From IMG/VR virus record IMGVR_UViG_3300043449_000994, positions 1 to 43,886 of that record: a DNA stretch of 43,886 bases. The stretch is one strand, 5' to 3'. The position numbers were made by a program, and so were the translations under genes. Below, in pieces: positions 1,345-43,886 of this stretch; the stretch's first letter is position 1, and every line of letters starts with the position of its first letter. Below the pieces are notes generated by a model. The model saw only the letters and a list, made by a program, of their open reading frames with translations. It was not told the DNA's origin and made no database searches. Source of the DNA: a virus.

Positions 1345-4300
1345 CTACAAAAGCAACTCATCGTAGAGCTTGTAAGCCGGCAGCGCCTCAACGATCCACT
1401 TGTGCATCGCCTCCGGATCGTCACTGCCAATCGCCTTGAGTCCCTTACGACCCTGCTGCAGTGCCGCACCGGCAAAGCTTTCATAGCCACCGCCACCCCA
1501 ATCCAGATCCTGCTGAGAGTCGATGAAGAACTGACCCGTACCAGTGAGACCTGAACGTTCTACACCTCTCTTCAGGTAGTCAGCTGCTCCCCAGTCTTTC
1601 TTGTAAGGAGGCTCTTCACCAGCGTTGACAATCATATCCTTCATGAAGTCTGCAGCGATCATACCCGGCACGTACAAAGACGCAATAAGTGCCGGTTTGA
1701 AATTACCGTGACTCATCTCATGAGAGATCCTCTGAGTGATCGTCATGTTAAAGCTCCATACGAACTGTTTAAGGTGCGCAATTGGTGCTAGGTAGGGGTT
1801 ACTAACCCATGTAGGAGTTTCTGCGCTAGAGGGGTTCAGAAGAGACTGACGGACCACTTTCTCCGTAGCGTTACGTAGTTTTTCTTCCAGCGCCTGAGCA
1901 GCTTCTTTAGTCATCTTCGGATTGGCTGCTTTGATCTCATCCGCACGTAGTGCAATTCGACCAAGGCTAGAACTAAAAATGATATCCGCTTTGGTCAGCC
2001 CCAGCTCCTCCAGATAACGCGCACTCTGCTCAGCGCCAAAGAAATCTTCAGCACTACGCTGCATGAACAGCTGAGCCGCCTTAACAGCCATGATGGTGTT
2101 ATTACGAATCCAGCCGCTGAGCAGGTTGTACTTGAACAGCTTGTCGTTTATGTCTTTCGACCTACCACTAAGAGTCATACCGTCGTAGCGGTTGTAGGCA
2201 TTGATGACCGTACCAGAGTCGGCAATGATCCCCCAGTCTTGTGCTATCTGTTCCCATTGATCCCGCGTGTAATTCTCCTTCCACTCCTTGAACATGTTCT
2301 TCACGGAGTAGGTGAACGTCTCCCAGCCAGCTTTCACGCTGTTGGTACGGATAGCTACACCCAGTGGATCGACCAGCGAGGAGAAGATAGCTAGAGGTAG
2401 AAGCCGAAGGTTCTGATACGTGAGCAGAGCACCGAACAGATCCTTGAGTTCTCGACTCATACCCACTTCTTTATTACCCAGCAGACCGTTGATGTAGTCT
2501 CTGGCCAGAGCTTCATCGTCAGCCGTAGCACCGTAGCGAGTCTTGGCTTCAGCAATCAGCTTCTCCAGCTTGATTCCATTTACGCCATAGGCACGTACAA
2601 ATTCAGCCTGTCGAGTAGCCTGTTTGATATACCTGACAGCAGTGTGTACAGGATCGTCCTCCATGAACTGGCGGCGGTCTTTTACGTCGATGAAATCAAG
2701 CGTACGCTCTCTGGCATGACCTGCTACAGGCTCTTTCTCAGCGCCCATAACGTCTACCAGATCCTCACCCCTGTCCAGATAAGAAGTGATGGAGTCATAG
2801 ATCTCGTCCGGAGTCTTCCTCAGAGTAGCCATCTTGTCAGCATATTTTGGCTGACGCAGCATCTTGAGAAACTCTTCCTTGTTCTCCGCTACCTTTTCCG
2901 GATCGAAAGCCAGAGGATAGTAGTTCTTCTTTTCTCCGATATTTACCTTAGCGTCTCTCTGATACTGAAGCATTTGGCCGTAGAACGCACGGAGAGCCTG
3001 AGCACGCTTCTTAACCAGAGGGTCCCTAGTAGGTATGCGGTTAAATATTAAAGCGTCGTGTACGGCCAGCAGCTGCTCTTCAGTCAGGTCTCCCAGAATC
3101 TTGTTCACCTTGTTCTGGAACGCTTGTGACTCGTTACGCATACGCTGAATAAGACCACCAGTGTTACCCTCTACACCTTGAGCCTGATAGCCCAGTTCGG
3201 CAATCTTGGCCAGAGGAGGAATGTTCGAGTTATGCAGTCGAGAATACGCAGCCGTGAAAATCACATCGTATAGCTTCTCAACAGCCGCCCATGCGTCCTT
3301 ACCCAGCTTGAGTGCCTTGTCTCCAGTAGTCATGTTCTTGTCCAGAACTCTCTGAACAGGAGTAGCCCCTCTTTTGGCTCGTTCACCACTAGCGAAGTCC
3401 TTGAAGATCATCTCAGCTTTCATATTGTTATCCATGATACTGAGGACCTTGTATATCCAGTCTTTTAGCTTCTGGAACAGAGACTCAGTCTTTGGACCAA
3501 CTTTGAGAATATTTGGGTCAGCTACCCACAGCTGAAAGCCATAAGCTGCAGCTTCCTCACCATTCTCCAGAGCTGCTAACACACCCGAATCGTTCTTGAA
3601 GTACTCTTTCAGCTTCTTAGCCACAGGCCCCTGTGTAAAGGCAGTAGCAAGAATGCGCCTTTCTTCCTTACTGAAGAAGAATTCAAAAGCCGCATGGAGA
3701 GATTCATGATCGGCATGAGCTATATTGTTTTCAGCACCAGTAGCTAGTTTGATAACGCCAAGAAGAGCTTTGTCTTTGATCAGCTCCTGTTCTTTAACTA
3801 GAATCTTTTCGATCTTGGCATCGATTTCCGCGTCATTCAAGCCGGATTTTCTGTTTGCCAACTCATCGATCTTCTTGTCATTGAGTAGATCTCTACGGTC
3901 ATCACGAATTTTTTTCAGAGCTTTCTTGATATCTTCAAACGAACCTTGAGCGTTGTTTTCTAACGTTTCGTCAAATAGAACCGCGACTCTTTTGCCAAGG
4001 AGCTTCTCAACTCTGTCGACAAAAGCTTTCTGAGCGGGGGTCTTCCTAGGCTTTTTAGGCGCAGGACTAGACGCTCCAGAAGGAGGAATGGGTGGAGTAG
4101 CGGGGGGCTGAGCAGGGGACTTTTTCTGACTACCGAACAAGTCAACTGGCTCTCCACCACCGGGAGGAGTTTGTTCTTCAGAATTTGATCCTCCGAACAA
4201 GTCAACTGGCTCTCCACCACCGGGAGGAGTTTCCTGAGTTTCCTGAGTTTCCTGAGTTTCCTGAACCGGATTTTCATTCAACCAGTCCTGAACTGCATTC

Positions 4301-7300
4301 AGGTGGATATCAGTTTCATCCGGTTTGTAGTACCCAACTTTTTTTCCACGAAGGCCCTGAAGAGCCGCAGCAAACTCAGAATCTTTCGACGCGCGGTTAT
4401 ATAGCGCTTCTTTATACTTAGTGACCGCTTCGGCACGAGTGAGTGTACCGCCAGCATCTTTAGCCACAAACGGATTGCCTAGCCATCCACGTTCGCCCGG
4501 CTTAGCATTAAGGATATGTTTCCCACCGTATCTATGCCCGTCGATGACATCTGCAGGCGGTTCGGTTCTGAACGGAAGTTTTACAATCTCAAACGCGTTG
4601 GGTTTTTGGGCATTTTGGCTCTCACTCGTTTGCCCAGAATCAGCTGCCTGCAGCTCAGCAAGCTTGCTTTGCAGATAGGCGAACGTCTTCGGAGCACGTT
4701 GTTTGAGCTGCGCCCTGCCAGTACCAAGACCGTCGCGAGGAATGACGATAGGCTTGTCACGTGGGATCTTGGCGATGGCTGCATCGATTGCGGCCTTGTT
4801 CTGCTCCAGCTCGCCGTCAGTGAAGAAAGAGCCCTCGCTCATGGACGGAGCTTTCTTGGTTGGGATACCGAACGCGTTTGGCTCACCGCGCATGGCCCTA
4901 GCCTGACCACCCAACCCTTTCTGCGTTAAGTTGTCGCCGAAAATGAAGGTCTTGTCCCTATTGTTGCGGACGTATTCTCTAGTGATGACAGCAGGCTCTT
5001 TTTCACCCGTTTGCCCAGATTTTTGAGCCTCTCCACTAGGAGACGTTTGTTCTTTAATAAACGCCACAAAGCGGGCTTGGCCATCGGTAGTGGCCAAGTT
5101 GAACACCGGGATACCCTTGCGCGAAGCCATGTCGATAGCTTGCCCAGTACCGCCTGTTTGTCTAGAACGAGCGGCGCTGCTTTCAGCACCGTCACGTGTC
5201 CATGTCAAAACAAAATCGACAGGTGTATTAAGGCCAGCACCAAAAATCTGATTGGTGTTACGCGCCATTAAATTTAACGGAAACTGTTTGAGCGCATCGG
5301 GATTCGGGTGAATCTCACGGGCAATGGCGCGAGTCTGATCTGTTGCGTGCTTGGCTAAGAAAATTTCTTTCCGTGTACCTGCACCAGCTTCGAAAGCAGA
5401 ATCAGCACCTTGTGCTCCTCCAGACCGCAGTGTATAGCCCAGTTCGCTAAGACGTTTAGCGAACTTAGTCATAAGCTGCTGTATTTCTGGTGGAGTTTCG
5501 CGAGAGCCAATACCCGCGTAAGTCATCGTACGTTGACCGGCTTCATACGCAGGCAGCTTGTCGAATTCAGGAGTTTTGCTTTCTTGGCTCTTACCCGTTT
5601 GCCCAGATTCGTTCTCAGCAGCAAGGGATTCAATCCATTGTTTGTAAGTCAGGTTTGGTTGGAACTTACTAACAACTTGATTGAAGAATTTCTGCAGAGT
5701 GGCACGCAGACTTTCCCAGAACGATCGTTCCTCGGCGCTGATAGCGCGGTCCATGTTATTTTCAACATATTTGTTGAATTGCTCTGCCATCCACTCTTCG
5801 AAGGAAGTTAGATACTTCCCGTATTCCGGATTGGATTTTAGAGTTTTGACCAGAGCGTCGTAGCTCTCACCAAAAGCTTCGTCAAACTTACCTGCCTTCA
5901 GTGAATCGATAAACTCTTCATGTCCGAAAACTTTTGAAGCGCTGAGTATGGCCCTATGATTTTCAAACGTGTTGCCCCAGAAAGCTTTCTGGTCCGCTTT
6001 CCACGCCGCTTTTAACTCGTTTTTAGTTTTCGCATCCAGCTGCTCCCACATGATGTTGTGGATAGCATGACCGAACTCATGGGCCAGAGTAGCCAGCTGC
6101 GTACCTTCAGCTTGATTATCTCTGAACAGAACGATGTAGTTTGTATCGCCGAGGCGCTTGTGAATCCCTCTTGATTTTGCAAGAGGTCGCTCAACAGCAG
6201 ACTGCAGAAGCTCGTATTCCTTAGTATCTTTAGAAATCTCTATTACACGAACCTTCCCCTTTCCTCCGAGGAATTTCTTGATCCATGACTCAGCAGTCTT
6301 CTGCTTCAGGCCGGTAGTGGGTAGAGCATCAAGCGCTGCTTTTACCTTCTCGTCAGTGGTCTGAATCTCTGTTTCGCTATTAGATAAACGATCTCTTATT
6401 GCTTTGAATTGCGTACGTAGATTTTTAACTTGTTCTTCAGTCAGTTCACCCTTGGCTTTTTCGACCTCCATCCCAATACCCAATAGATCACGCGGATCTT
6501 TGGCCTCGTTGAACGCTCTGGTCAGAGAATCGAATTTCGATTCAGCCGGAGTGCTCCCGAACAGATCCGTAGGCTCTCCACCACCGGGAGGAGTTTTTTG
6601 AATAGGTTCTTGAATAGTAGTTTCAGGCGAAACCTCAGTGTTTACGGGGGTTTGAGCCGTTTCCTGAATAGATTCCTGAATAGATTCCTGAATAGGAGCT
6701 TGAGTCTGAGTCTGAGTCTGAGTCTGAGTCTGAGTCTGAGTCTGAGTCTGATCGACCGGAGCCTGAATAGGCCCTTGAACCGGAACAATCGGCCTACTCA
6801 ACTTCTCAATAACAACTTTTCGTAGACGATTCGCTTCGTTTATCGATACGCTACCTTTCTTGACTCTTATTTTCTTACGGACAGCCGCAAGCTCTTCCGG
6901 AGACGTAGCGCTATCAATCGCCGAAAGCAGCTCCGTAGCTTTCGGTCCATAAGACATCAGTTCAGTTTTCTTAGCCTCATAATCAGCCTGAACAGCCGCC
7001 TGCTGTTTCCCATTCAGCGTGTCTTTATTTCTTTCTACAGCTTCTAAGCTTTCTAGCGTATTAGCTTTGGATATCTCACCACGTACCGCCAGCTCAGTCT
7101 CAAAATCAGGTTCGGTGGGAAGGCTATATACAGTCGGTTCACGCCCAGTGCTGGCAGTTCTAGCACGTACCGCCATCTCCTTATTCATAGGAGTGCCGAG
7201 ACTGGCCTCAAACTCGGAATCAATCTTCTCGTCCTGAGTAGGTTCTGTACCAGCCGCTCTGTCCACAGAATCACTACCTGAGCCAATAGCTACCTCAGTT

Positions 7301-10300
7301 GGTAAGCCTTCTTCGACAAAGCTACGCAGGTGGCTACCATCGGGTAGCTTGAGCATAGACCGACCCTGACCAAGGCCTTCGAGAATACGGGCACCTTCAG
7401 AAAGAGTAACGTCTCGGTTCTTTCTAGCTTCCTTTAGAAGGCGACTTTTAAAAGCTCTGTCAGAAGCTCCGCTTTTTCTGAGTTTAAGTTTTTCTTCAGG
7501 TGTGAAATCACCGGCTTCTATACGCGCTACGTTTTCATCAAGGACAGATTTTCTGTCATAAGCGTCGGCCAGAGTTTCTACGTGATCTTGAGTAATATCA
7601 CCATTGCGAAGAGCTTCCTGAAGTGCGGATTTTTCCTCATTTACCTGAGTCTTTTTGATGGTTTCAAAACGAGCGGCATGAATTTTAGTAAGAGCTCGGT
7701 CAGGCGAGATTCCTTCTCTCTTGGCAAGAGCGTCTACTTCCTTTTTCAAAGCAATCAGCGGCTGCTTCTCAGCTTTAGTACCCTGTGCCTTGATACCATC
7801 TTCTAGGCTACTAGCTGTATCGAAGCGAGTCAGGACTTCATGCTCAGCACTCAGCTTTTCTGAGGTTGGAGGAGTCCAAGTCTTTCTCTCTCCAAATTTT
7901 TTTAGATTGTAGGGATCTTCGCCTTTCTCCCTACGGACAACTTTACCGCCAGCAAAGGCATTCTTAGGATCGATTTGTACCTTCAGCTGTTTATCGCCGA
8001 ATGTAATACCTTTATCAGCGAGTGTAGCGACCAGATTGCTATAACGCATTGCCGCGTTTTCGTCAGCAGACAGAGAATCGTCATACTCACTTACATGCTC
8101 GTCAAAAGATTCTCGATTATCTTCCTGTCTAGCCATAGACACCAAAGACATCGGGCTGATATCCAGCGTCAAAGAGCCGTCTTTATTAAGCTTTTTACCC
8201 AGCGATTGAGCGAATTCTTCTACACCTTCTCCGGAAACCGTAATCGGAGTCTGTGTATTTTTGCTCTTGCTGTATTGAGGATCGGCCAGAGACTCAGCGA
8301 TGGTTTTTTCATTGAACGGAGACGCGTTGCTACGTTCAATATCCATCCGATTTCCATCGGAATCGTAAGCCGCTACTTGATTCCCATCAGCATCAAGAAC
8401 CGATTCCGTCTCGGTTTCAGAATCAGGCAAAGCCGTACGAGAATAATCCACAGCATGAAGAGGAGTGGAACCCATCTCTTCACGAATCTGTCGGTCTTCT
8501 TCCCGCTTAAGAACCGAGTCGGTTTGTTCAACCAACGATGCATAAATTGATTCAGGAGATTTCCCTTCAGGCGCAACGGCGCTGAGGTCCATCCGGTGTG
8601 TACCCGGTTTTTGAGCGCTATCTTTCTTAGCAAGAGTTTCCAGCAGACTCCGTTGATCTTGAGACAGGTCCTCTATAGGAGTAGCGGCTATTTTCTGAAG
8701 GGCCGGAACGTACTCACGCCCCAGACCATTCTCGGCAGCAAAAGCGAGAACATTCGACCCAGTGATTTTTCTGGTTTCTAGATCACGTTCTCCTTTAGCA
8801 AAGGCATCCAAAACGGATATAAAATCAGTGCCTGTTTCTTCATTCCATTGACGGATACCTTCCGAAATAATTGGATTTCTAGCAATACCTTCTTCAGTAA
8901 ACAGAGCTGGATTCTGAGCACCGAGAGACATCAACTCGGCCATATCTCTACGCTGGTTGATAGAAGCGTTTTTGACTACGTTGTCTAGAACCGAATTGAT
9001 TCCGCGCAGACGCTCAAGAGTGCCTTTTACATCGACATCGAAGCGCGATGCTTTCTGATCAGAGTTTTCTGTGACAGATTTATACAGACCCTTGACTGTA
9101 TCTCCCAGCCAACTAAATGCCTTAGGCGCGTCTTCCTTAACACGGTCTTTTATGCGACCTGCTGCAATACCAGCGCCTTCAGCAAAGTCTTTGCCGGTCT
9201 CAGCTTTGAGAGTCAGCTTGAATGCTTCCCAGTCCGACGCAGTTTTAGCTCCTAGAGTAGAAGCATCTTGAATAAACCGATCACGAATGACAGGGTCTTT
9301 GATGTTGTCAGCTATGAACTTGTTAACGTCCATAGCAGTTTTACCGACAATATCACCAGCTTTGTCGATACCTTCCTTACGCATATAGTCGATACCTTGA
9401 CCGACTACCGGAGCTATGTTTTCTTTGTAATCAGCTACACCTTTGTCATAGGCTTTATGAGCCTCAGCCAAGGCATTAAGGGTCATGTTTCCTACATCAA
9501 CACCGAACTGTTCAGGATCATCCGCTACGCTCTGTAGCTTGCCAATGATCGTGTCGAAGGTAAGCGGTCCCTCTTCTTTCGGTTTCTCAGAAGTAGAAAC
9601 GAAATCAGAGATAGGAACGGCATTATCACGAAGAGCTTGTATTGAGCCGCCGACAGCACCCATCGGAGCACCGGCTACAGCACCTTTGATCATTGCCTCG
9701 CGAGTCTGATCAAAATTAAACTGGCTCTGCGGATTCAGATACTTCAGCGCAGCCTGACTAGTCAGATCCTGTAAACCTTCTTCTCCACCTTCGGCAGCAC
9801 CTGTCCGAAGAGCAGACAGTCCGACAGTCTTAGCAGCGTTCTTTAGCCCTACGCCTGAAGTGATGCCCTTACCCAGCAGAGACGGAATAACCAGAGCCTG
9901 TTCTGGAGTATTCTCGAGAAGAGCGTTACCTACACCCACGGCTGTAGCCATAGCCGCACGTTTCCACGCGGGCTGCTGCATGGCTACGGGATCGTTCAGT
10001 GTATCGAGAACCTGACCGCCTCCTTCCATAGGGACGAGCGGTGCCGCACCTCCGACTAGGCCCCCTACAACACCTTTTAGAACTCTGCCACCTAAACCAC
10101 CTGCGAGACCGATGGCCGTGGACGGAAGACCCTCACCAATCGCTCCAGCGGCGTAATCTATGGCCGAACCTATCGAATTAACATCTTTAGATTCAGCCAC
10201 TGCGGGAGCCCATGCCTTAGGCATGTTAGCTATGTTTTGAGCAGCCTGTTGCTGCGTGCGCAATCCTGCTTCTGGATTAATCAGTTCCTGTAACTGCCCA

Positions 10301-10515
10301 CCGAATGCTCTACTAGCTTCTAGCGCACTGTATCCGCTGCGGCGAAGTCCTTTTACGAACTCGCCACCACTGTACATAGCATCTAAGTCAGCCTGGATGC
10401 CCTCATTAGGACTAACAGGCTGACCATTTCGTAGCCTAGTGGCGATCCCGTATCTTCTTTCAGCCGACTCTTCTAGAGGAGATAAAGGAAGCGGAGCGCG
10501 CAGAGAATCATTCAT
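1345..10515 (-). CDS. Giant polyvalent virion/ejection protein (3056 aa)
   Basis: Residues ~130-290 are Gly/Ala-rich and hydrophobic, like membrane-seeking ejection proteins. ~1256-1271 is a TQ repeat. HEFGH at 1479-1483 and HESLH at 2270-2274 are two zinc-peptidase motifs. ~1665-1815 (TYAGIGSRETPP, LRSGGAQGAD) is a SLOG/DprA-type nucleotide-binding domain. ~1843-1955 (FIFGDN, GLGGQARA) resembles DUF7831. ~1975-2081 (GWLGNPF, LRGKKVGYYKP) resembles DUF4326 but lacks its usual cysteines. The helical C-terminus (~2600-2960) resembles the LPD38 region of large polyvalent proteins. The motif TPPGGGEPxDLFG occurs at 1308, 2096 and 2116 between modules. Such proteins are typically packaged and injected with phage DNA. 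It is the last gene of the late block. Domain names are from recognition, not a search; enzymatic activity is inferred. Confidence 0.85.
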   Translation of the reverse strand: MNDSLRAPLPLSPLEESAERRYGIATRLRNGQPVSPNEGIQADLDAMYSGGEFVKGLRRSGYSALEASRAFGGQLQELINPEAGLRTQQQAAQNIANMPKAWAPAVAESKDVNSIGSAIDYAAGAIGEGLPSTAIGLAGGLGGRVLKGVVGGLVGGAAPLVPMEGGGQVLDTLNDPVAMQQPAWKRAAMATAVGVGNALLENTPEQALVIPSLLGKGITSGVGLKNAAKTVGLSALRTGAAEGGEEGLQDLTSQAALKYLNPQSQFNFDQTREAMIKGAVAGAPMGAVGGSIQALRDNAVPISDFVSTSEKPKEEGPLTFDTIIGKLQSVADDPEQFGVDVGNMTLNALAEAHKAYDKGVADYKENIAPVVGQGIDYMRKEGIDKAGDIVGKTAMDVNKFIADNIKDPVIRDRFIQDASTLGAKTASDWEAFKLTLKAETGKDFAEGAGIAAGRIKDRVKEDAPKAFSWLGDTVKGLYKSVTENSDQKASRFDVDVKGTLERLRGINSVLDNVVKNASINQRRDMAELMSLGAQNPALFTEEGIARNPIISEGIRQWNEETGTDFISVLDAFAKGERDLETRKITGSNVLAFAAENGLGREYVPALQKIAATPIEDLSQDQRSLLETLAKKDSAQKPGTHRMDLSAVAPEGKSPESIYASLVEQTDSVLKREEDRQIREEMGSTPLHAVDYSRTALPDSETETESVLDADGNQVAAYDSDGNRMDIERSNASPFNEKTIAESLADPQYSKSKNTQTPITVSGEGVEEFAQSLGKKLNKDGSLTLDISPMSLVSMARQEDNRESFDEHVSEYDDSLSADENAAMRYSNLVATLADKGITFGDKQLKVQIDPKNAFAGGKVVRREKGEDPYNLKKFGERKTWTPPTSEKLSAEHEVLTRFDTASSLEDGIKAQGTKAEKQPLIALKKEVDALAKREGISPDRALTKIHAARFETIKKTQVNEEKSALQEALRNGDITQDHVETLADAYDRKSVLDENVARIEAGDFTPEEKLKLRKSGASDRAFKSRLLKEARKNRDVTLSEGARILEGLGQGRSMLKLPDGSHLRSFVEEGLPTEVAIGSGSDSVDRAAGTEPTQDEKIDSEFEASLGTPMNKEMAVRARTASTGREPTVYSLPTEPDFETELAVRGEISKANTLESLEAVERNKDTLNGKQQAAVQADYEAKKTELMSYGPKATELLSAIDSATSPEELAAVRKKIRVKKGSVSINEANRLRKVVIEKLSRPIVPVQGPIQAPVDQTQTQTQTQTQTQTQTQAPIQESIQESIQETAQTPVNTEVSPETTIQEPIQKTPPGGGEPTDLFGSTPAESKFDSLTRAFNEAKDPRDLLGIGMEVEKAKGELTEEQVKNLRTQFKAIRDRLSNSETEIQTTDEKVKAALDALPTTGLKQKTAESWIKKFLGGKGKVRVIEISKDTKEYELLQSAVERPLAKSRGIHKRLGDTNYIVLFRDNQAEGTQLATLAHEFGHAIHNIMWEQLDAKTKNELKAAWKADQKAFWGNTFENHRAILSASKVFGHEEFIDSLKAGKFDEAFGESYDALVKTLKSNPEYGKYLTSFEEWMAEQFNKYVENNMDRAISAEERSFWESLRATLQKFFNQVVSKFQPNLTYKQWIESLAAENESGQTGKSQESKTPEFDKLPAYEAGQRTMTYAGIGSRETPPEIQQLMTKFAKRLSELGYTLRSGGAQGADSAFEAGAGTRKEIFLAKHATDQTRAIAREIHPNPDALKQFPLNLMARNTNQIFGAGLNTPVDFVLTWTRDGAESSAARSRQTGGTGQAIDMASRKGIPVFNLATTDGQARFVAFIKEQTSPSGEAQKSGQTGEKEPAVITREYVRNNRDKTFIFGDNLTQKGLGGQARAMRGEPNAFGIPTKKAPSMSEGSFFTDGELEQNKAAIDAAIAKIPRDKPIVIPRDGLGTGRAQLKQRAPKTFAYLQSKLAELQAADSGQTSESQNAQKPNAFEIVKLPFRTEPPADVIDGHRYGGKHILNAKPGERGWLGNPFVAKDAGGTLTRAEAVTKYKEALYNRASKDSEFAAALQGLRGKKVGYYKPDETDIHLNAVQDWLNENPVQETQETQETQETPPGGGEPVDLFGGSNSEEQTPPGGGEPVDLFGSQKKSPAQPPATPPIPPSGASSPAPKKPRKTPAQKAFVDRVEKLLGKRVAVLFDETLENNAQGSFEDIKKALKKIRDDRRDLLNDKKIDELANRKSGLNDAEIDAKIEKILVKEQELIKDKALLGVIKLATGAENNIAHADHESLHAAFEFFFSKEERRILATAFTQGPVAKKLKEYFKNDSGVLAALENGEEAAAYGFQLWVADPNILKVGPKTESLFQKLKDWIYKVLSIMDNNMKAEMIFKDFASGERAKRGATPVQRVLDKNMTTGDKALKLGKDAWAAVEKLYDVIFTAAYSRLHNSNIPPLAKIAELGYQAQGVEGNTGGLIQRMRNESQAFQNKVNKILGDLTEEQLLAVHDALIFNRIPTRDPLVKKRAQALRAFYGQMLQYQRDAKVNIGEKKNYYPLAFDPEKVAENKEEFLKMLRQPKYADKMATLRKTPDEIYDSITSYLDRGEDLVDVMGAEKEPVAGHARERTLDFIDVKDRRQFMEDDPVHTAVRYIKQATRQAEFVRAYGVNGIKLEKLIAEAKTRYGATADDEALARDYINGLLGNKEVGMSRELKDLFGALLTYQNLRLLPLAIFSSLVDPLGVAIRTNSVKAGWETFTYSVKNMFKEWKENYTRDQWEQIAQDWGIIADSGTVINAYNRYDGMTLSGRSKDINDKLFKYNLLSGWIRNNTIMAVKAAQLFMQRSAEDFFGAEQSARYLEELGLTKADIIFSSSLGRIALRADEIKAANPKMTKEAAQALEEKLRNATEKVVRQSLLNPSSAETPTWVSNPYLAPIAHLKQFVWSFNMTITQRISHEMSHGNFKPALIASLYVPGMIAADFMKDMIVNAGEEPPYKKDWGAADYLKRGVERSGLTGTGQFFIDSQQDLDWGGGGYESFAGAALQQGRKGLKAIGSDDPEAMHKWIVEALPAYKLYDELLL
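4133..4232 (-). repeat. 40-bp direct repeat pair within the giant gene
   Basis: An identical 40-bp segment occurs at 4133-4172 and 4193-4232, start to start 60 bp, encoding two copies of TPPGGGEPVDLFG. It is followed by four copies of a 9-bp unit (to 4264) encoding the QET repeat. A third, diverged copy of the motif lies near 6555-6594. These sit in disordered linkers between domains. Confidence 0.85.
6701..6750 (-). repeat. Hexanucleotide tandem repeat (TGAGTC, about 8 copies)
   Basis: Eight perfect TGAGTC units plus a partial one, encoding a Thr-Gln dipeptide run in the giant protein. The unit is a multiple of three, so copy-number changes keep the frame. The repeat lies just upstream of the first peptidase module and acts as a flexible linker. 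Confidence 0.9.
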
Positions 10516-40044: not shown

Positions 40045-40736
40045 TTGAACCAACTCCTCATTCCGTCGCCGATACCATTAAAGCCTTGCCGAACCTGTTC
40101 CAGAGACGGCTCTGACCGAGACTTATTTCCCGTTAGAGATTTAGGCAAAGCCTTTGCAATAGAGTATGCAGGAACAGCCACTCCTAGCAAGGGTGCCATG
40201 AGCGGGTCTTTCGCCACAGTCTCTCGAGCAAAGGCTCTGTGTTCGTAATTAGCCAATCTGTTCTGTTCTGCCTGATTAGGAGCGCTCTTTCGTAACTCAA
40301 GCAATCTGTTCTGATTCAATCTAGCTAATTCATCATCAGAATATGTGATCGGCTTAGTGTTATAAAACGGCGATTGTCCGCGCCCTTTACGCTCTGCAGC
40401 CCATTCAGCAGACTTTTGATATATGGAATCATCTAACGCTCTATCCTGTGTAGGGATGGGAGGAAGTTTTTTAGGAGCGGTACGTAAATAATCGACTTCA
40501 GCTCTATTGAGTGTCGGCACGAATTGCGGCCCATGATCGTTGGAATACTCCGTCATTACGGACCCGTTTGGTCCGGGCAGCGCGCCTAACCAACCTACAT
40601 CCTTAGCACCATCTCTGAGATCATGTCGAGCGCCCCAGTCTTTTTTGCTGACACGCACCGCTTTAGGTAAATCAGGGCGATATCGCGATGTTTCGGGGAA
40701 AACATCAGTTAATGTTGCCGCTAATTTAGCCTTCAT
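40041..40736 (-). CDS. Virion-module protein with WLGxLxxPxGxVMTEYS motif (231 aa)
   Basis: The ATG at 40736 overlaps the terminase stop (ATGA); an ATG at 40748 is an alternative. RDGAKDVGWLGALPGPNGSV followed by MTEYS and FVPTLNRAEVDYL is a motif I have seen in phage structural or ejection proteins (DGTxKGxGWLGxLxRPDGxVxTEYS...PTLTPxE). The remainder is basic and helical (ELARLNQNRLLELRKSAPNQ). It lies between terminase and portal. Function not known. Confidence 0.65.
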   Translation of the reverse strand: MKAKLAATLTDVFPETSRYRPDLPKAVRVSKKDWGARHDLRDGAKDVGWLGALPGPNGSVMTEYSNDHGPQFVPTLNRAEVDYLRTAPKKLPPIPTQDRALDDSIYQKSAEWAAERKGRGQSPFYNTKPITYSDDELARLNQNRLLELRKSAPNQAEQNRLANYEHRAFARETVAKDPLMAPLLGVAVPAYSIAKALPKSLTGNKSRSEPSLEQVRQGFNGIGDGMRSWFK

Positions 40737-43186
40737 GCCGCCATCCATGAACCAGAACCGCCTTCAACGAACTGAGGCAGTTTGTCTTTCCAACTCTTGG
40801 GCGCTTTAACTTCAAGAAGTTTTCTTGGATTACGTCCTACACAAAGATTAACTGCCCATGCCATAGCGTCGACAATATCGTCGTGTGCTCCGGCAGGAAA
40901 TCTCAAGAACTCAGTCATTAATGTATTGACCCAAGGTGCGTTTTGCGGAAAGTATACTCTACCTTGTTGCATACGTCCCTGCAACGATCTAGCACGCGCC
41001 ATTTTATCCGTTAATGGTTTAAGGGTCTCATAGGGAGGGTACATCCCTCTTTCTGCCATACGCTTCTCAAGAAGCGGCTTAATGGCTTTCCAGATTTGTG
41101 ATTCCTCAAACCCGAGAGTGAGAGGTGCAGTTGGCTCTCCTCCCCAGCGCTCAGCCGCGTTTAATATCTCTTCCACGATCGTGAATGAATCGCCTCTAAA
41201 CCGAACTATCTCCACTACGTGCAGAAAATCATTCTCATCCTGAATGATAGTAGCTCCGACAGTGTAGTCGTTCATCTGCTTTTCGCCGATGGCGAAATCC
41301 CATGCCTGAAATACATTCCGCTGATACGCTGCCGGCGGCACTGACTCGAACTTAAAATACTCCTTCCTGAAATACATACCCTCATCAGGCACAGGGTTCT
41401 GCTGATAGAGCGCTGACCAGATTCTGACGGGCTGGTTAGCCTTCATCGCCGTCATCATCTTCTCGTTATACCTCTCCGGATGAAGTGCTTCACCCGGCAT
41501 ACGTAACAGCTCGTACTCCTCTCCATAGGGTATGGGGATGGAAACACCCTGTTCTCTCTGCTCGTTCCGCTTCTCTACGTGATCCAAATCCATAGGACTT
41601 GGCAGACGTTCTATGAGACCTGTTGTGTGATTTCTGTACTCCCACGCCTCAGCTATGGCTGGATACTTGATAATCACAAACTGGTCCGACTCCTCGTCTG
41701 TGCGCATCTTCTGCTGCAGACGCCCTGCCAAATCATCATCGTGCCACCACGTGTTATGTGACACGAGCCCGTTAGCTATGAAGTTCTCTGTGCGTTCTAC
41801 TTGAAGGTCGAAAACTTCTTCTTCGCCGTCAAATTCAACGCTTACTACCGGATCAAGAATGAAGTCTGATGTATTCAGCAGCGGCAAGTGCAGCGGACTC
41901 AGATCCAAGATGTCCGATAGCGGCGTTGCAGTTGTTACATAAGAGCCCTCTAACTTTTCCTGTATCGTGGCAGTGATCGACAGCAAGTCGCTCTTTCCAA
42001 TGATGTGGGTTTTCTGGGGCGCTACTTCTGCAAATGGCACAGGCTCCGTTCTGTTCTCGGAACATTCGCTCGTAATCGTCGATGGTGATTCCGTACCGAT
42101 TCTTAAGCTTAGCGCTCCGTTTTGCTCGCTGATCCAACGCACTTGGAGCTCGGTATCCATCGGCCCATTTACGTTTGTTGTAATGGGATTGACAGAACCC
42201 TCTACAAATAGCTGATTTGTCGCAGCCATCTGCTGCGCACGTAATGCCGCGCCACTTGCCGTGTTGTCCTTTAGCGCCACGATTCTGTGGGCCGTAGTCA
42301 AGCTTTTCGCTCGAATCCATTTTAAATCGCCTCCGATATCAGCCAAGAATGGATGCCGCCCATTCGCTCTGACTACTTTACCAGATTTAGTAGTAATTCG
42401 CAGCACAGAATCACAACCATTAGATTTAATGGCCGAAACAGTAGACGTGCTTAACGCGCCTCTGTCGTAAGTAGCTACTACGTCCCCAACTTTTATGGAA
42501 TCTAATCGCCGCTCATCTCCGTCGCCCATTAGTACAGGAGTATCCCCAGTCATACACTGGATCACCAGCACGCCTCCACCGGGGGCCAGACGAGTATAAG
42601 CCGTTGACCAGTACCAGTCCCAGAGACTATCTCTCGTAACAATCGAATCAGCTTCTTCCTGATTCTTAATCGGGTCATCAATGATTAAAACTGTCGCGCC
42701 TTTTCCTGTAATACCGCCTCCGACGCCTGCGGCAGTAAAACCGCCACCCATCGTCGTATTCCACGCTTCAGCCGACTGAGAGTCAGGGTCCATCTGCGTT
42801 TTGACGAACAGAGGGTTGTAGCCGGGATCTCTGACAATCTCTCTGACCTTCCTCGAAAATTTCATTGGCAAGTCGAGGTTATATCCGCAGTTGATAACCT
42901 CCCATTCAGGGTGATGGCCTAGAACAAATGCCGGAAAGCGTATGGACGCCAATTCCGATTTGCCGTGGCGAGGAGGGACAAGCAGCATGAGTCGAGGACT
43001 TTTCTTTTCCTCAACGTCGCGCATAAATTGCTCAAGCCTTCGCGCAATATCATGATGTACCCAGCCGGGGTTGTACTGAGGGTAGAACCGCTTTGTAAAC
43101 TGAATCAGTGATCGTCGTGCCAGAACTCGTTTGGCAAGTTCCAGCTCAACCTTTGGATCTACGCCTTGGGTCTGAGAATTAGTCAT
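40733..43186 (-). CDS. terL: Terminase large subunit interrupted by an intein (817 aa precursor)
   Basis: Walker A PPRHGKS at residues 71-77, Walker B VLIIDD ending at 170-171, motif AGVGGGITGKGA before it. The C-terminal RNase H-like nuclease has AWDFAIG (D630) and HDDIVDAMAW (D773). Residues 211-478 are an intein: Cys211 begins CMTGDTPVL and LVSHN ends at Asn478 before Thr479. The joined exteins read GVLVIQ-TWWHDDDLAGRL, a normal terminase sequence, giving a 549-aa mature enzyme. It cuts concatemers and drives DNA into the portal. It overlaps the terminase small subunit by 8 nt. Confidence 0.95.
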   Translation of the reverse strand: MTNSQTQGVDPKVELELAKRVLARRSLIQFTKRFYPQYNPGWVHHDIARRLEQFMRDVEEKKSPRLMLLVPPRHGKSELASIRFPAFVLGHHPEWEVINCGYNLDLPMKFSRKVREIVRDPGYNPLFVKTQMDPDSQSAEAWNTTMGGGFTAAGVGGGITGKGATVLIIDDPIKNQEEADSIVTRDSLWDWYWSTAYTRLAPGGGVLVIQCMTGDTPVLMGDGDERRLDSIKVGDVVATYDRGALSTSTVSAIKSNGCDSVLRITTKSGKVVRANGRHPFLADIGGDLKWIRAKSLTTAHRIVALKDNTASGAALRAQQMAATNQLFVEGSVNPITTNVNGPMDTELQVRWISEQNGALSLRIGTESPSTITSECSENRTEPVPFAEVAPQKTHIIGKSDLLSITATIQEKLEGSYVTTATPLSDILDLSPLHLPLLNTSDFILDPVVSVEFDGEEEVFDLQVERTENFIANGLVSHNTWWHDDDLAGRLQQKMRTDEESDQFVIIKYPAIAEAWEYRNHTTGLIERLPSPMDLDHVEKRNEQREQGVSIPIPYGEEYELLRMPGEALHPERYNEKMMTAMKANQPVRIWSALYQQNPVPDEGMYFRKEYFKFESVPPAAYQRNVFQAWDFAIGEKQMNDYTVGATIIQDENDFLHVVEIVRFRGDSFTIVEEILNAAERWGGEPTAPLTLGFEESQIWKAIKPLLEKRMAERGMYPPYETLKPLTDKMARARSLQGRMQQGRVYFPQNAPWVNTLMTEFLRFPAGAHDDIVDAMAWAVNLCVGRNPRKLLEVKAPKSWKDKLPQFVEGGSGSWMAA
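41753..42556 (-). mobile_element. Intein in terminase (268 aa) containing a nested HNH gene
   Basis: N-terminal splice block CMTGDTPVLMGDGD...ATYD, block B RANGRHPF and C-terminal blocks VFDLQVERTENFIANGLVSHN (shortened here to FDLQ...LVSHN) are present, with Cys1, terminal His-Asn and Thr+1. The splice domain supplies about 80 residues at the start and 34 at the end. The ~155 residues between read through an HNH gene in another frame. Insertion is at a conserved ATPase site, as usual for terminase inteins. Confidence 0.92.
41853..42320 (-). CDS. Endonuclease VII-type HNH homing endonuclease nested in the intein (155 aa)
   Basis: A different frame from the terminase (offset 2), with its own GGAGG 9 nt before the ATG, embedded in the intein DNA. 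The N-terminal zinc-finger-like part (C28, C33, C39, C43, H46) is followed by ACAIC (C94, C97) and LAVDHCHDTGKVRGLLCNNC (D115, H116, H118, C128, C131), the Endonuclease VII / HNH core with its zinc site. HNH homing enzymes nick intein-free alleles to spread the intein. Usually they lie in frame inside the intein; here the gene is separate. The reading is strong on motifs and RBS; function inferred. Confidence 0.9.
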   Translation of the reverse strand: MDSSEKLDYGPQNRGAKGQHGKWRGITCAADGCDKSAICRGFCQSHYNKRKWADGYRAPSALDQRAKRSAKLKNRYGITIDDYERMFREQNGACAICRSSAPENPHHWKERLAVDHCHDTGKVRGLLCNNCNAAIGHLGSESAALAAAEYIRLHS

Positions 43187-43748: not shown

Positions 43749-43886
43749 TTGCCAAGGCGGAAAAAGTACCTAGAAGCTTTGAAAAAGTACCTAGAAGCTT
43801 TGAAAAAGTACCTAGAAGCTTTGAAAAAGTACCTAGAAGCTTTGAAAAAGTACCTAGAAGCTTTGAATGATCGGGTGAAAGTACTC
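43749..43886 (+). CDS. Possible start of a plus-strand gene encoding heptad repeats (runs off the window)
   Basis: From a TTG at 43749 the frame reads PRRKKYLEALKKYLEAL and continues with five KKYLEAL heptads and NDRVKVL to the window edge without a stop. Heptads with leucines at fixed positions predict an amphipathic coiled-coil helix. The frame has no ATG or GTG and no well-placed RBS (AAGGGGG is about 20 nt away), so translation is uncertain. It diverges from the terminase operon. If the window ends were joined, the frame would continue into 1-273, but that is speculative. Confidence 0.25.
   Translation, partial: MPRRKKYLEALKKYLEALKKYLEALKKYLEALKKYLEALNDRVKVL
43761..43865. repeat. Five perfect tandem copies of a 21-bp unit
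   Basis: Units at 43761-43781, 43782-43802, 43803-43823, 43824-43844 and 43845-43865 are identical, each with a HindIII-type AAGCTT and encoding KKYLEAL on the plus strand. The perfect identity suggests recent expansion, a functional binding array, or an assembly artefact at the contig end. Directly upstream of the terminase operon. Confidence 0.95.

Follow-up and report, generated by a model that had tools for sequence, protein, structure and literature searches.

An HNH endonuclease gene nested in a second reading frame of a phage terminase intein

Results

Organization of the terminase locus

We have analyzed a 43,886-nt stretch of DNA (the window) that constitutes an uncultured virus record, IMGVR_UViG_3300043449_000994. 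The minus strand of the window encodes a terminase large subunit (TerL) in a single 817-codon frame, in which the Terminase_6 N and C domains lie to either side of an intein (VIQ/CMTGDTPV...VSHN/TWWHDDD). The insertion point corresponds to the ATPase C-motif position that has been described for TerL6-f inteins (PMC5050341). A complete ORF of the Endonuclease VII type lies within the intein but in its +2 frame, preceded by a Shine-Dalgarno-like element. The features of this region, and 2 others noted elsewhere in the window, are listed in Table 1. A first-pass annotation of the sequence had proposed that an intact terminase intein contains an out-of-frame, self-initiating HNH gene, and its coordinates proved to be exact.

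Table 1. Features of the terminase locus and of the remainder of the window
Feature	Position	Strand	Properties and support
Terminase large subunit precursor	40733-43186	-	One 817-codon frame including the intein; Pfam Terminase_6N and 6C; PHROG 38 terminase large subunit
Intein	41753-42556	-	268 aa, Cys1 (42554-42556) to Asn268 (41753-41755), Thr+1; inserted between Q and T of IQ/TWW; PF14890 (Intein_splicing) 1.1e-15
N-terminal half of splicing (Hint) domain	42263-42556	-	Intein residues 1-98, blocks A and B; conserved in a 24-sequence alignment; pLDDT mostly above 90
C-terminal half of splicing domain	41753-41878	-	Intein residues 227-268, blocks F and G (FDLQVERTENFIANGLVSHN)
Intein linker in the terminase frame	41879-42262	-	Residues 99-226, mostly predicted disordered; no amino-acid conservation of its own
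Nested HNH (Endonuclease VII-type) gene	41853-42320	-	155 aa, +2 frame relative to the intein; PF02945 1.8e-22; phrog_2914 2e-29
GGAGG, Shine-Dalgarno-like	42330-42334	-	9 nt upstream of the HNH start
HNH start codon, ATG	42318-42320	-	Last base of Lys79 and first two of Trp80 of the intein (AA-ATG-G)
HNH catalytic motif	41967-41978	-	D115-H116-C117-H118 in the HNH frame
Slippery heptamer T TTA AAA	42320-42326		In -1 phase exactly at the HNH start
Five perfect 21-bp tandem repeats	43760-43867		GAAAAAGTACCTAGAAGCTTT; at the contig end, beside the gene upstream of terminase; possibly an assembly end or a packaging-related repeat
3,056-aa protein	1345-10515		Virion structural domains with a DprA-like domain (PHROG 768, 7e-46); a possible polyvalent injected protein

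The intein has the residues expected of a splicing domain, namely C1, N65-x-R67-H68, H267, N268 and T+1, which are invariant in 24 relatives, although N replaces the usual Thr of block B.

Conservation of the two-frame arrangement

Searches of viral contigs with the intein and HNH alignments confirmed 474 and 591 related stretches, respectively, of which the best 80 of each were kept. Eight more loci came from genome contigs titled as MAGs or strains of Sulfuritalea, Anaerolineae, Endozoicomonas, Gallionellaceae, Nonomuraea, Mycolicibacterium, Chloroflexi and one uncultured bacterium, and the arrangement is also present in cultured Mycobacterium and Gordonia phages. We collected 104 distinct intein DNAs (individual loci are designated below by L and a number), and observed that 102 of these, in about 80 clusters, have both splicing blocks in one frame with no stop between them. 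In all 102 the HNH profile hits only the +2 frame, which is far beyond chance expectation. The remaining 2, L147 and L153, are frameshifted. In L147 (1942-2740), the N-terminal intein half runs in frame into the HNH and the C block is in another frame, which represents either a frameshift that would abolish splicing or a sequence error. Eight further inteins with variant C-terminal blocks showed the same arrangement on reading. The two-frame layout therefore has one origin, and has been kept through divergence to about 50% protein identity.

The putative start site of the nested gene is likewise conserved. The Trp codon of the intein is preceded by A (86) or G (16) and never by C or T, which gives ATG or GTG in every one of the 102 members. 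Lys, Glu and Gln codons force a purine at this position, but Ser, Thr, Arg, Val and Ile codons found there also end in A or G without exception. A core Shine-Dalgarno motif (GGAG, GAGG or AGGA) was found at -16 to -5 in 59 of 102 members (58%), and in 81 of 102 with a wider motif set, as compared with 8.5% and 15%, respectively, for control ATG/GTG triplets in the same terminase exteins. Also, the Gly codon located four before the Trp is GGA or GGG in 80 of 94 cases, against 665 of 1,936 Gly codons in the exteins. It should be noted that these sequences are related, and the counts are not independent trials.

Selection on the two frames

We used 15 independent close pairs to class each substitution in the core of the overlap by its effect in both frames. 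The normalized nonsynonymous/synonymous ratio (N/S) was 0.19 in the HNH frame (bootstrap over pairs 0.12-0.25) and 2.03 in the intein frame (1.6-2.7), whereas the splicing-domain flanks, read in the intein frame, gave 0.20. The value above 1 is the expected by-product of overlap with a constrained frame and does not indicate positive selection. The method does not correct for multiple hits. Changing the transition weight from 1 to 4 gave 0.16-0.21 and 1.8-2.3 for the two frames. In contrast to its lack of amino-acid constraint, the intein frame in the overlap never acquires a stop. If the HNH amino acids were coded with the codon usage of the neighboring terminase, each element should contain about 3.1 stops in the intein frame, or about 249 over 80 clusters, and none was seen. 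The intein frame is thus required to be open, as expected if it is translated through, and nothing more is required of most of the loop.

Predicted structures of the two products

AlphaFold on 24 sequences predicted a confident Hint domain from residues 1-98 and 227-268, with residues 99-212 at pLDDT about 30. The nearest solved folds are DnaB mini-inteins (E 4e-9). The stretch of about 115 residues that is predicted to be disordered is located between blocks B and F, where inteins keep their endonuclease domains (PMC6801210, for the conserved insertion site). The HNH frame was modeled at pLDDT 84 and matched T4 Endonuclease VII over the nuclease core, at 38% identity over 64 columns by fold and 3e-9 by profile. 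D115, H116, H118 and N132, and Cys 94, 97, 128 and 131, are invariant in 24 relatives, and an N-terminal C28-C33-C43-H46 set looks like a zinc finger.

Mobility and decay of the element

Joined flanks of the window aligned contiguously to intein-free terminases, best in L012 (82.6% upstream, 74% downstream), then L021, L022, L009 and L010, so the empty site is exact. The inteins of L170 and L180 are 86% identical in DNA, yet their terminases share only 32-40% of residues, and similarity falls off within 30-60 nt downstream of the intein; L053 and L058 are similar. This is what homing of the whole segment would leave. However, Mantel tests over 85 members gave moderate correlations for all three pairs of parts (0.63 splicing-HNH, 0.55 splicing-extein, 0.62 HNH-extein), so that distances alone do not prove that the unit moves freely. 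The clear cases are individual pairs, and long-term inheritance with the terminase also occurs.

The HNH frame is intact in nearly all of the relatives. L193 has a stop in the nuclease body and has lost the DHCH motif, L164 has an early stop, and L067 has an internal HNH deletion. A search with the joined splicing halves, intended to find a form that preceded the nuclease, yielded one true mini-intein of 149 aa (L200, 1380-1826) at the same site. Its +2 frame still reads VAATARNKSRGPGSSGYWGK-TESVLLKAAEYIRVHSRRS, the two ends of the HNH protein fused. The mini-intein is therefore a deletion derivative, which fits a homing cycle and does not show what preceded the nuclease. A separate Endonuclease VII-like gene lies upstream in L200, at 1-438. 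A search of phage records with this mini-intein found only the nested family and distant inteins of other sites or genes. L193, L067 and L200 all keep the intein frame, so the nuclease is dispensable once the site is fixed.

Other terminase inteins with nested HNH genes

A second terminase intein, located before CGVG(S/A)AL, carries an unrelated HNH (phrog_3377, 1e-44) in the +1 frame. It was found in L216 and L218-L227, and in partly deleted form in L228. Contig L205/L216 holds both this intein (L205:1355-2323) and the type described above in one terminase gene. A third intein, at the Walker B site of L019 (3819-4766), carries another HNH (phrog_1271, 1e-19) in the +1 frame, in a single contig. 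Pfam gave no hit for the second and third nested nucleases, which were identified as HNH by PHROGs. These observations indicate that nested out-of-frame endonucleases have arisen at least three times in terminase inteins.

Discussion

In the aggregate, our observations are best explained by a mobile intein whose putative homing endonuclease is encoded as a separate gene, nested in another reading frame, and we regard this explanation as highly probable. We infer that the terminase frame is translated straight through, that the two halves of the Hint domain fold together with the roughly 115-130 residues between them forming a disordered loop at the usual endonuclease insertion position, and that the intein then excises itself and joins the terminase. 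Splicing is inferred for this copy, but has been shown for the homologous TerL6-f intein of Mycobacterium phage Chandler (PMC5050341), in a study that tested splicing and not cutting for that intein. From the conserved start site and the codon-level constraint we infer that ribosomes also start internally at GGAGG-N9-ATG on the same mRNA, and make a free, zinc-binding HNH nuclease of 155 aa. From the empty sites and the evidence of horizontal transfer we infer that this nuclease cuts intein-free terminase alleles at or near the C-motif, and that repair copies the whole DNA segment, both layers at once. Selection keeps the HNH amino acids on one frame and only the absence of stop codons on the other.

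The core proposal of the first-pass annotation, that a splicing-type intein and a self-initiating HNH gene share DNA in two frames, is thus supported, with three qualifications. The arrangement is not peculiar to this phage but belongs to a widespread, conserved family that extends well beyond actinophages. The suggestion that an HNH gene invaded a mini-intein is plausible, but no pre-invasion form was found in our searches. Finally, the annotation held that the intein must read through about 155 codons of alternative-frame sequence and still splice; the intein does not strictly have to splice around a conserved alternative-frame domain, because that stretch is predicted to be a disordered loop under no amino-acid constraint.

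Other explanations appear unlikely. HNH proteins encoded near terminase genes are part of some packaging machines (Kala 2014, as cited in PMC12613952), and the present HNH, which is inside the terminase gene, might be a domesticated packaging co-factor rather than a homing endonuclease. Yet close intein-free relatives have terminases without it at this site, the unit moves between very different terminases, and it decays or is deleted in some copies. It is similarly improbable that the HNH is a relic of a once-homing gene, now kept only as the coding source of an intein linker. A few copies have lost HNH motifs (L193, L067 and L200, and L228 with an internal deletion), but in the great majority the HNH frame is under strong purifying selection, with all catalytic and zinc residues invariant in the alignment, including in this window. 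Somewhat less likely still is programmed -1 frameshifting, rather than internal initiation, to make the nuclease as a fusion to the N-terminal intein half. The heptamer listed in Table 1 is in the correct phase immediately at the HNH ATG, but only 1 of 102 relatives has it there, whereas the start codon is kept in all of them and a Shine-Dalgarno-like motif in most; it may be a chance feature of this copy. Out-of-frame, self-initiating endonuclease genes are the normal arrangement in group I introns, but a self-splicing RNA intron is very improbable here, as there was no Rfam match in the window at gathering score and the insert is open in the terminase frame in all relatives, with conserved intein blocks and a predicted Hint fold. 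A sequencing or assembly frameshift that split one ordinary intein-endonuclease is refuted, since one indel cannot open both frames over the whole overlap and, L147 and L153 excepted, the N and C splicing blocks share one frame in 102 distinct inteins, including those in finished genomes of cultured phages.

Several known systems resemble the present one in part. The TerL6-f inteins of Mycobacterium cluster B3/B4 phages (Kelley et al. 2016, PMC5050341) are homologous and occupy the same C-motif site of a Terminase_6 protein, and we observed that the Chandler and Phlyer inteins carry the same +2-frame HNH. In the portions of that report that we examined, endonuclease activity is described only for other TerL inteins with in-frame LAGLIDADG domains, and an out-of-frame nuclease in TerL6-f is not mentioned. 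The ShiLan-type hidden HNH insertion in phage DNA methylases (Arsenault, Gosselin and Gogarten 2025, PMC11855218) is also open in the host frame, has an HNH gene in another frame with its own start, and shows evidence of homing. However, ShiLan has no self-splicing domain and no detectable ribosome-binding site, whereas here the HNH sits inside an intact intein with a Shine-Dalgarno-like motif. Split inteins in fractured genes (Dassa et al. 2009) appear to have a free-standing endonuclease between the intein halves; in the present case gene and intein are unbroken and the endonuclease gene overlaps the intein.

Our literature searches, which were confined to openly available papers and did not extend to the text of a 2025 preprint on actinobacteriophage inteins with 'non-canonical architecture' (Gosselin et al., doi 10.1101/2025.01.02.630785), found no description of this architecture in inteins. 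The title of that preprint, and its citation in PMC11855218 for overlapping frames in actinophages, suggest that it may describe out-of-frame endonucleases in inteins, and priority is therefore uncertain. As a tentative generalization, which we consider possible but not established, inteins may have a third, widespread architecture besides mini-inteins and in-frame endonuclease inteins, which arose at least three times in phage terminases with unrelated HNH nucleases and two frame offsets, and which has not been formally described for inteins outside actinophages, or at all.

Intein reviews treat the endonuclease as a domain of the intein polypeptide. Here the two functions are on one DNA segment but in two proteins, so splicing and nuclease dose can evolve and be expressed separately, as in group I introns. 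This explains some apparently endonuclease-free inteins, such as that of Chandler, as carriers of an unannotated nuclease, and suggests a route between mini-inteins, hidden HNH insertions and split inteins with free-standing endonucleases. Gene callers miss the nested gene, as the annotated records that we examined list no separate HNH gene at this place. Canonical mobile inteins share with the present element the Hint domain, insertion at a conserved active-site motif and the dorsal position between blocks B and F, but their endonuclease is part of the intein polypeptide. The two architectures can coexist in one gene: in L202 and L203, the terminase ORF has two inteins, a P-loop intein with an in-frame LAGLIDADG domain and the nested-HNH intein.
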